Positions 25,814 through 33,520 of a DNA stretch of 64,000 bases are shown in pieces. The notes under the pieces are model-generated. The model saw nothing but the letters and a program-made list of their open reading frames with translations, ran no database searches and was not told the DNA's origin. Source of the stretch: Sipunculus nudus. Taxonomy: Eukaryota > Annelida > Sipuncula > Golfingiida > Sipunculidae. Position numbers and translations under genes: made by a program. The stretch covers positions 16,552,001 through 16,616,000 of the forward strand of contig CM049308.1 in the NCBI GenBank assembly GCA_026874595.1, given 5' to 3'. The stretch's first letter is position 1. Every line of letters begins with the position of its first letter.

Positions 25814-25920
25814 TCTGAGCGGGACCTTCCCTTTCAATGAGGATGAGGAGATTGCAGATCAGATACAGAATGCTGCGTTTATGTATCCTCCTAATCCATG
25901 GAAAGAAATATCCCAAGAAG
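25814..25920 (+). CDS. PRKD: Protein kinase D, kinase exon F: alphaG region
   Basis: Exon of 107 bases after the acceptor ATTCTCACAG, ending CAAGAAG before GTAACA. It completes a split Ser and encodes [20 protein letters not shown] followed by [16 protein letters not shown], the alphaF-alphaG segment typical of PKD. It ends with one base (G) of the next codon. Downstream there are two alternative exons, at 27057 and 33435. Both begin with two bases that turn this G into an alanine codon, so the exon can be joined in frame to either. Confidence 0.93.
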
Positions 25921-27056
25921 GTAACACCACACACTGTACACACACTCACACAGCTTACTGGTTGATGGTTGATCCAGTTAAATATTTGTATTAAAATATG
26001 TAGTACCACATATTATTCATATCATTACAATTTTTAAACTGTGATTAGAAAAAAAAACAGCTGGGATTATGCTTACATGCACACACACATTCATGTAGTG
26101 ATATATATTACTGTTTGATGGTAGTAGAACATTTGCAGTACCAATATTACATTATTTTTCATTGATATTACTAAGAATTTTTTATTTTTTAATGAGAAAA
26201 CTCTAGATCATTTTGACAGTTTAAATATGCATATAAAATGTGCCAGTGTATCCAGCACCCTTGTATTTAATTGTGTTTTTGGATATACACACAGGAATTA
26301 GATAGCAGCAGAACATTAAAATTTCTGTTTATACTTATATTTTATCATATAACTTTTTCATAATGGAATTTCTTTCTTATAAAAATATCTTTAGCATTGA
26401 CATAATTATCATATTAAAGTTTTCAAAATATTTTGAAATTGAACATGTCTCAAGTAGAGTTGTATGATAAATCATTTTAACTTAGGATATTTAGAATTCA
26501 GTTTTACAATATATATCATATCCATTTGCCCTTGGCTGTAATAAATGTCCATATATTGCTTCCATAACAAAAAGGGGAAATGGGTGACATTGTTTTGAAC
26601 CCTGCCTTACAAATAGTCAAAAAATTATATGATTAAGAATACATGTGCATGCATTTAAGGGTTTATACAAATTATTAAGTTCAAAGTTTAAAAATTGATA
26701 GAAATCAAATAACATCTTAACCATAAAATAAATTGCCCAACTCTAGTCTGAAGCAGCATTGTTAAACCTTTTATCTAGATATTTGTTTTAGTTGATCTGT
26801 TTATCGAAGTGATACTTCCATAAGTATTGTCAAAAGGCAATAATATAACACCTAACATTGAAGTGCTGGTTTTTTGCAGTATATTGATTTGTCTAGCATC
26901 ACTGATGCAAGATTTTGGTTTTCATTGAATGAACATTTACTGCTACATAGTATTCTTGTTGCACTTGCATGTTGTTTTTCATTTCAGTCAATCACTTGCC
27001 ATTTTGATGTGTATTGCCAGTGTTTGCCTCTGACAAAGTTAGCTGTTTTATTTCAG

Positions 27057-27145
27057 CGGTAGACCTGATCAAATGCTTGCTGAAAGTCGATATGTGCAAC
27101 CGCCTGACTGTGAGTCAGGCATTCAGCCATGATTGGATGCACAAG
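27057..27145 (+). CDS. PRKD: Alternative version of the PKD alphaH-alphaI exon (duplicated exon); may instead extend to 27292 as an alternative last exon
   Basis: A clean acceptor (TGTTTTATTTCAG) is followed by an open frame reading AVDLIKCLLKVDMCNRLTVS then QAFSHDWMHK. Aligned with the canonical exon at 33435-33520, about 14 of 29 residues are identical. These include A-DLI--LL-V-M, the subdomain XI Arg (NRLTV), and SH-W. The entry phase is the same (G|CG for Ala). If the GT after AAG at 27145 is the donor, the exon is 89 bases and joins the last exon in frame. That donor (AAG|GTTCAT) is weak. If it is not used, the frame stays open for 48 more codons to a stop at 27290-27292, with AATAAA at 27431-27436. 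The result would be a truncated kinase with a new tail. The open frame, splice acceptor and conserved kinase positions argue against a pseudo-exon; expression is not shown. Confidence 0.72.
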
Positions 27146-27430
27146 GTTCATTTACTTGATGATGTCACATGCAGAACAAGACACTACTGCCACCTGCTGT
27201 CATTCTTGTGCACTAAATCCCCGCAATCTTTACCTGCTTCCAATTTGTCGCCCTCTATATACATGTTGGTGATTTGTACACCATGTATATAAGAGCAGCC
27301 ACTTTTCTGCGCAGCACACAATACTGCCATGGATGGGCCTGGTCTCAACACAATTAATTTGTAAACAAAATTTTTCTATCACTATTTTGTTAAAATACAT
27401 GTTATTTGTAAACACACATTGCAGCATGAT

Positions 27431-27436
27431 AATAAA
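27431..27436 (+). terminator. Candidate polyadenylation signal for the alternative short PKD form
   Basis: AATAAA 139 bases after the stop at 27290-27292 of the open frame that continues from the duplicated exon at 27057. Its position fits an alternative last exon, but AATAAA is frequent in AT-rich sequence. Confidence 0.3.
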
Positions 27437-27714
27437 TTGTCAGTAACTGTTTATTTTTAACTTTTTCACTGCCTGTGTGGGAGCCATAAAATACAATGCT
27501 CTGGTTTCAAAGTTTATTTTATTTTAAGTAAACTTAACCCCCCACCCTATTGTTTGACTGTTTTGCCATTTGGATATCACTTTAGGGACATCCTTATTGA
27601 AACATAATGTTATTTTAATGCTGACCACACACCTTCTTTAGTTCATTTTGGTACATGTTATTTCCTAATTCTACCCTGAATATTGTGAGATCATGGCCCA
27701 TCCATCCATACCTG

Positions 27715-32084: not shown

Positions 32085-32265
32085 ATCCTATTAAGACCAC
32101 CATCAGGATCTCCATAAAGTGGTTGCATTTGTGAGGTGGTCCTCTAAGGGAGATCTTATTTAAAGAGTGAAAAAGAATTGGGACCAATTAAAAGTGGTTG
32201 TTGTTTTGAGGTGGTCACTAAGCCGAGGTGCTTGTTAGGCGATGTTTTACTCTATATACTTTGTA
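32085..32265 (+). repeat. Dispersed GTGGTC-type repeat
   Basis: Ordered words TTAAGACCACCATCAGGATC, AAAGTGGTTGCATTTGTGAG, GTGGTCCTCTAAGG, then GAGGTGGTCACTAAGCCGAG and GATGTTTTACT. The copy at 39780 has the same plan. Confidence 0.55.
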
Positions 32266-32599
32266 AAAGTAATGTCATGTTTTCTGACATTATTGTAACA
32301 TTATGGGCCTTATGAAGTTGACAGAATTATCAGTTGATTTGGTTCTTGTTGCTTCATTTCATATGGCACTAGTGCAATATAAGTGTGGGATAAATAATGC
32401 TACATTTCAGGATAAATTTCGAACTTTAAGGAGTCAAGTTAATTTTGAAGCCTGCATAGAAGCTTTCTAATAATGCTTGGCTTTTTTGCCATCATTTTCT
32501 CTAATATACTATTTTAACTGTTTCCTCACAATATGAAACCAGACAAGAAAAATTAATTCATAGTACTTAAAAACTAAATTGAGTAGCTTGATGTAAATG

Positions 32600-32735
32600 T
32601 GTTCCTGCAGGGCTGGTTCAGTATGGCTGGTGTTGCTACCATGGTGATGTGTTTCAGTGGTGCTGTCCCCATGGTAATATATTACCATGGTGATTCATAA
32701 CCAAGGTGATATGTTACTATGGTGAACTGATGCTG
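32600..32735. repeat. Cluster of CCATGGTGAT repeats with a 22-bp perfect palindrome
   Basis: Five imperfect copies of a CTACCATGGTGATGTGTT-type unit. At 32669-32690 a perfect palindrome with the arm CCATGGTAATA is formed where two units meet head to head. Confidence 0.7.
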
Positions 32736-33434
32736 TAGTGTTAGGGTGTTATTTGTTATAGCTCTGATGGGTCTTGCACCAAGTCTTTTTCAGCATGTGT
32801 GAAAGATGCCTGTCTTCACAGGGGGATGTTGACTTCGCAATTAATGCTGCCATTGATGTGGTTATGTTGATGTAGACATGGTAATGGCTTGGTACCTCCT
32901 GGCCCTCATAGCTGCATATCAACCCTACCCTATCACTGAATATAAATTTTGACCCAAAAAAATCAGTTTTATTGCTCTCATTATAATATTTACATTTAAT
33001 CTTCATTTTACTAATCTAACAAATTACTCGGTAATTGACTTAAAATATATGTCACAGAACACTTGTTGCACATTGGAAAACAAACAGTGACTGTTATTCA
33101 GAAAACCATTTATGGTTTTGCACCAAATTTCCAAAACCCTTTTACACTTCATGCAATTTCCAGTCTAATGTTAAGCATTTCTAACTAAATTTTTTAACTA
33201 AGGGTATCATACTGAATTTCCAATTCACAGTGTATTTTATTCTGAAGAAAATCTAGCATTTATTTTACAATTTGATTGAGATAGACAAGGCTCTGATTGT
33301 TATATTGTGTGGTTATGACATATTGTTTAACATCACTAATACATCCATGGCAGCCATTATGTGGGATGGTGTGTTGGTTCAATCTTTATATTGCTGTTTT
33401 CCAATTCTTAATTACCATTGTGCTTTCATTCCAG

Positions 33435-33520
33435 CAATTGACCTGATAAATAATCTGTTGCAAGTGAAAATGCGGAAGCGCTTCACTGTAGACAAATCGC
33501 TAAGTCATGTCTGGCTACAG
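33435..33520 (+). CDS. PRKD: Protein kinase D, kinase exon G: canonical alphaH-alphaI
   Basis: Exon of 86 bases after the acceptor TTTCATTCCAG, ending CTACAG before GTGAAC. It encodes [20 protein letters not shown] followed by KSLSHVWLQ. Human PRKD1 has the near-identical [20 protein letters not shown] here. The invariant Arg of subdomain XI is in RKRFTV. This is the canonical partner of the diverged copy at 27057. Splicing both copies in series gives an immediate TGA in this exon, and skipping both shifts the last exon out of frame, so exactly one can be used. Confidence 0.94.

Follow-up and report, generated by a model that had tools for sequence, protein, structure and literature searches.

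The DNA analysed here, referred to as the window, is a stretch of 64 kb (C3:16552001-16616000) from an assembly of 1.43 Gb in 153 contigs, and it contains the 3' part of one protein kinase D (PKD) gene on the plus strand. The exons (Table 1) were mapped by tblastn of a PKD kinase domain against the 64-kb window and by means of their splice sites; residues 1-20 of this query, which hold the Gly loop, had no match in the window. Of the domains that characterise PKD (an N-terminal ubiquitin-like domain, two C1 domains, a PH domain and the kinase domain), the mapped exons cover the kinase domain. An earlier note on this DNA had assigned the gene to PKD, and this assignment holds. The exon starting at 23541 carries HCD (not HRD), DFG, two activation-loop serines and EKSFRRS, the serines S738 and S742 align when mapped to human PKD1 numbering, and the kinase domain joined through exon B reaches 227.3 bits with the Pfam Pkinase model. 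The HCD catalytic motif is reported for PKD (PMC10359097).

Table 1. Features of the PKD gene, with positions counted from the first letter of the window; a slash marks an exon boundary.
Feature	Position	Strand	Basis or adjoining sequence
PKD kinase-domain exon, from beta3	5532..5638	+	tblastn, splice sites
PKD kinase-domain exon	6703..6759	+	tblastn, splice sites
PKD kinase-domain exon, alphaD	7205..7309	+	tblastn, splice sites
PKD kinase-domain exon, HCD and DFG motifs, activation loop	23541..23724	+	tblastn, splice sites
PKD kinase-domain exon, APE, alphaF	25213..25288	+	tblastn; acceptor TTTTCAG/CT read by eye
PKD exon E1, alphaG, upstream exon common to both forms, phase-1 end	25814..25920	+	ends ..CAAGAAG/gtaaca
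Variant exon A, alphaH-alphaI, 89 nt, AVDLIKCLLKVDMCNRLTVSQAFSHDWMHK	27057..27145	+	after ..tttatttcag; inferred donor AAG/GTTCAT
Donor-like GTGAGT within exon A, in frame with the last exon; its use would delete alphaI	27110..27115	+	
Open frame past exon A to TAA; candidate tail of an alternative last exon	27146..27292	+	not coding-like
AATAAA closest after the TAA at 27290-27292	27431..27436	+	
Canonical exon B, alphaH-alphaI, 86 nt	33435..33520	+	after ..cattccag
Last coding exon, shared by both forms; TAG at 34981-34983	34783..34983	+	

Several other features were observed in the window. A 39-bp tandem array of 15.8 copies (7283-7890) begins inside the 3' end of the alphaD exon (7205-7309), and its units repeat the end of this exon together with the 5' splice site. 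Downstream of the genuine donor (7309), a loose donor pattern has 11 matches from 7310 to 7920, nine of which are in another phase, and the frame of the exon itself soon meets a stop. On the minus strand, a stop-to-stop open frame of 432 aa (11681-12979) lies antisense within a PKD intron and resembles a coiled-coil protein with a Cys-rich C-terminus, with no Pfam or NCBIfam family matching it above the cut-off. Five more matches to this frame were found in the assembly at E ≤ 1e-5, two of them with a stop, and it could represent a nested gene with a single exon. Further downstream, a 99-bp tandem array (56334-57307, 9.8 copies, 95% matches) has one frame that is open over most of its length (288 aa, 56270-57136), where the short Pfam matches look spurious. 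More tandem arrays are present at 1508-2799 (unit of 337 bp), 3972-4609 (166 bp), 8559-9040 (29 bp), 9552-11050 (41 bp) and 51542-52301 (278 bp).

Between E1 and the last coding exon lie two exons, A and B, which encode versions of the same alphaH-alphaI segment. The coordinates and frame statements given for these four exons in the earlier note were all reproduced, as was its description of A and B as homologous duplicates: upon recomputation, 14 of 29 residues are identical, both exons enter in phase 1 after E1 and keep the frame on joining the last exon, and both retain the A-DLI--LL-V-M core, the subdomain XI Arg and S-H-W. Exon A has one extra codon at its 3' end relative to B. The tblastn search with the PKD kinase domain against the 64-kb window also found A (32.0 bits, E 0.001), with position, strand and frame all correct. 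The sequences flanking the two exons align no better than chance, with 18% and 34% of 200 shuffles being equally good, and a large recent tandem duplication that included the introns was rejected for this reason.

Translation of the possible joins gave the following outcomes. The forms E1-A-last and E1-B-last are each open through to the TAG of the last exon. When both exons are included (E1-A-B-last), the frame reads CAA TTG ACC and then stops at a TGA (bases 10-12 of B) that precedes the last junction by 74 nt; when both are skipped (E1-last), a stop follows GLSLLV within the last exon and the kinase is truncated at the end of alphaG. The 50-base rule for NMD has been described (PMC1431701), and since a stop at this distance falls under it, the double inclusion would be expected to be an NMD target, whereas the stop of the double skip, lying in the last exon, escapes the rule. 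Thus, the frame would clean up double inclusion and not double skipping, and the earlier statement that frame enforces exclusivity is borne out in that either combination meets a stop and that double inclusion is a predicted NMD target, but does not extend to removal of the double-skip transcript. A and B are probably mutually exclusive.

At E ≤ 0.001, exon A matched only itself in the 1.43-Gb assembly. With a lax cut-off, the self match was followed by a kinase locus that we take to be MELK-like (22.4 bits), by B (20.5 bits) and by another kinase (19.4 bits). For exon B (five candidates scored), the best non-self match was A, with 19.8 bits and an E of 1.51, which is not significant alone, and three others followed. 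Given that the MELK-like locus stands ahead of B among the non-self matches of A, the descent of A from B is argued from its place, its phase and the best match of B. The activation-loop exon (23541..23724) matched itself with 126.1 bits and the next of the 20 matches listed had just 39.6 bits (150 of 157 candidates scored); one locus of PKD grade was found in the assembly, and a second PKD gene with an A of its own was discarded on the basis of that difference. A transposon or repeat origin of A was likewise not supported, because the region 26980-27460 matched itself alone in the assembly, in a search that skips very common words. The relatives in prokaryote contigs were distant kinases only (among the best 80 of 408 confirmed matches), those in viral contigs amounted to one distant locus, a kinase, and the search for a functional RNA gave no Rfam match at the gathering score and no tRNA.

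The evidence that A is maintained as coding sequence comes from the pattern of its differences from B and from its fit to the kinase fold. Over the 29 codons compared, which leave out the extra 30th codon of A, the differences between the two exons number 13 at first, 3 at second and 19 at third positions. In a neutral simulation, B accepted synonymous changes only and A changed freely for an equal time (4,000 runs at each of nine settings); the combination of at most 3 second-position and at least 19 third-position changes without a stop was reached in 0 of 4,000 runs at every setting. With a looser criterion (at least 14 shared residues, at least 19 third-position differences and no stop), the proportion of neutral runs was at most 0.3%. 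The Pfam Pkinase model gives the kinase domain 229.6 bits with A, slightly above the value with B, and 201.0 bits when both exons are skipped. B is narrowly ahead in two further Pfam kinase models (108.0 against 107.3 bits and 30.6 against 28.4 bits). In a shorter context, A has 156.0 and B 153.7 bits with Pkinase, and eight of eight simulated decayed copies with 14/29 identity have 129.3-144.9 bits, that is, 9-24 bits under B. When each was joined to the same upstream exon, A had matches to 109 distinct PDB sequences at E ≤ 0.001 and B to 86, with B ahead of A for the top match, Chk2 (40.4 v 36.9 bits). As for pairwise similarity, 6.9% of 5,000 decayed copies equal A in BLOSUM similarity to B, which is not discriminating, and 0.02% of 5,000 equal it in similarity to Chk2. 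In codon usage, A is closer to the exons of the gene than to noncoding DNA: its score is 0.20, a value reached by 4.9% of 3,084 open noncoding stretches in a weak test that was trained on 303 codons and gives B itself -0.06 when left out of training. Taken together, the codon-position pattern, the neutral simulations and the Pfam controls indicate that A has not been decaying neutrally; it is well supported as a selected coding exon and is a candidate for a working splice switch.

The main doubt concerns the donor of A. Donors were scored with a human donor matrix and compared with the 3,752 GT sites in the window. The donor of A, AAG/GTTCAT, has a score of -3.5, at the 66.7th percentile of these sites. 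All seven other donors of the gene score at least +1.98, at or above the 95.9th percentile, four of them having been picked as the highest-scoring GT close to where the tblastn match ends, a choice which favours those exons; the donor of B is at the 98.7th percentile. Such weakness of the donor at 27145 speaks against the splice-switch claim in its simplest form. On the acceptor side, the pyrimidine content is 0.65 for A, a value shared by E1 and the last exon, and 0.76 for B, and an extra AG is found 14 nt upstream of the acceptor AG of A, with none for B or E1 in 38 nt.

It is possible, though on the unlikely side, that A was for long a mutually exclusive exon whose donor was recently lost in this species, so that it is now skipped or spliced in by error. 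A donor little better than the average GT, next to an intact frame and an intact kinase fit, is what points in this direction. However, A contains no stop or frameshift and has preserved both its coding score and its kinase fit, and thus any donor loss must be recent; in addition, weak splice sites are common in alternative exons.

The weak donor, combined with a usable acceptor, a frame that continues past A for 48 codons before it reaches the TAA and the AATAAA at 27431, might also indicate an alternative last exon, in which case the transcript would end in the intron, with the core complete to alphaI and the C-terminal tail replaced by 48 residues. We consider this improbable, since the extension is not coding-like: its codon score is -0.38, and 89% of 706 open noncoding stretches are as high or higher. 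A long coding 3' extension of A was rejected on the same grounds. Moreover, the open run and the AATAAA are both unremarkable, as runs of at least 48 codons are found at about 5% of the positions from 25001 on and in 10% of shuffles of the stretch itself, and 14% of the positions in 25921-33434 have an AATAAA no more than 150 nt away.

Two further alternatives fare worse. The stop created by the A-B join, 74 nt before the last junction, would suit a poison exon, included with B and lowering PKD through NMD, for which the protein sequence of A would be irrelevant; as such an exon has no need of the strong protein-level constraint seen on A, we regard this as very improbable. Hardly credible is an A that ends at the internal site 27109 (ACT/GTGAGT), giving a product without alphaI, since, although this donor-like site is in frame and far stronger than the donor of A (96.9th percentile of GT sites), the part that would be lost (27110-27145) is coding-like (0.22), holds S-H-W and contributes 11.6 bits to the kinase match, which falls to 218.0 bits with Pfam Pkinase when A is cut there.

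The reading that we prefer, with a probability of about 0.58, is that the alphaH-alphaI exon was duplicated long ago and that selection has maintained the paralogous copy, A, as an alternative coding version. E1 would be spliced to one of the two exons, A or B, which would in turn be spliced to the last exon, and an altered dimer would tune PKD. Double inclusion would lead to the premature stop and, by the 50-base rule, to NMD, and double skipping to a kinase that breaks off where alphaG ends. The form containing A would have a weaker or altered autoinhibitory dimer, and splicing would in this way set the ease of PKD activation. The A form is perhaps limited to one tissue or state, in which some factor would be needed for the use of its weak donor.

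The proposal of a modified dimer is based on the residues that differ between the two exons. Outside the core, most of these differences would be predicted to fall on the surface, and the changed surface described in the earlier note is recovered, with the substitutions K823D, R825C, K826N, D831S and K832Q from B to A (human PKD1 numbering, counted from K622 of the present protein as anchor). The net charge of the segment is +3 in B and +1 in A, and position 831 is Asp in B and Ser in A. Outside the A/B exon, the human residue is carried at 12 of the 14 PKD1 positions tested, the exceptions being 757 (S for N) and 788 (E for D). The cross-linker EDC couples amines to carboxyls. PKD autoinhibition has been modelled as a trans-autoinhibited, face-to-face kinase dimer, and an intermolecular EDC cross-link between 622 and 831 is among the restraints used for the modelling (PMC9962925). 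In the available text of that paper, position 831 is named once, in the Methods, the intermolecular cross-link named in the main text is K622-E668, and the dimer-interface mutants are E787K, R741E and D665N, with 831 not among them (PMC9962925). Considering the chemistry of EDC, the Asp at 831 fits this cross-link, and Ser would not. We propose that the A form would make a weaker or altered dimer. A more specific version, which we hold to be rather doubtful, is that splicing selects between an autoinhibition-competent B form with Asp 831 and an A form unable to make the normal trans-autoinhibited dimer, with different activation thresholds as a result.

If A is used, PKD would have a splice switch in its kinase part that is linked to the autoinhibitory dimer, and the natural substitutions, which keep the fold and may change the dimer face, would offer a direct test of the trans-autoinhibition model. 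PKD is encoded by three genes in mammals and one in fly (PMC6686927). PKD1, PKD2 and PKD3 of vertebrates and the PKD of fly belong to the same kinase family as the protein described here, and B corresponds to their canonical segment, as represented by the PKD query. Should the reading of the dimer be true, one gene would provide enzymes with different activation thresholds, and vertebrates use several PKD genes. Exon pairs of this type are known in other kinases and we found none reported for PKD: no pair for alphaH-alphaI appeared in the open-access titles and abstract openings among the matches listed, and other papers or gene annotations could hold one. Among the known systems, exchangeable kinase-domain exons are described for Mapk14 (p38, CSBP1/2) and apparently for Mapk9 and Mapk10 (PMC1431701). 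These are MAP kinases whose pairs are known from transcripts, whereas the PKD pair is known from the genome. In FYN, the mutually exclusive paralogous exons of FynT and FynB extend into the kinase domain (PMC9741552). As proposed for the PKD pair, these are tandem duplicated, mutually exclusive, kinase-domain exons; however, the FYN pair covers the SH2-kinase linker and the N-terminal part of a tyrosine kinase domain and is accompanied by tissue data, whereas the PKD pair covers alphaH-alphaI of the C-lobe. With A in use, PKD would join p38, JNK and FYN as kinases with exchangeable kinase-domain exons.
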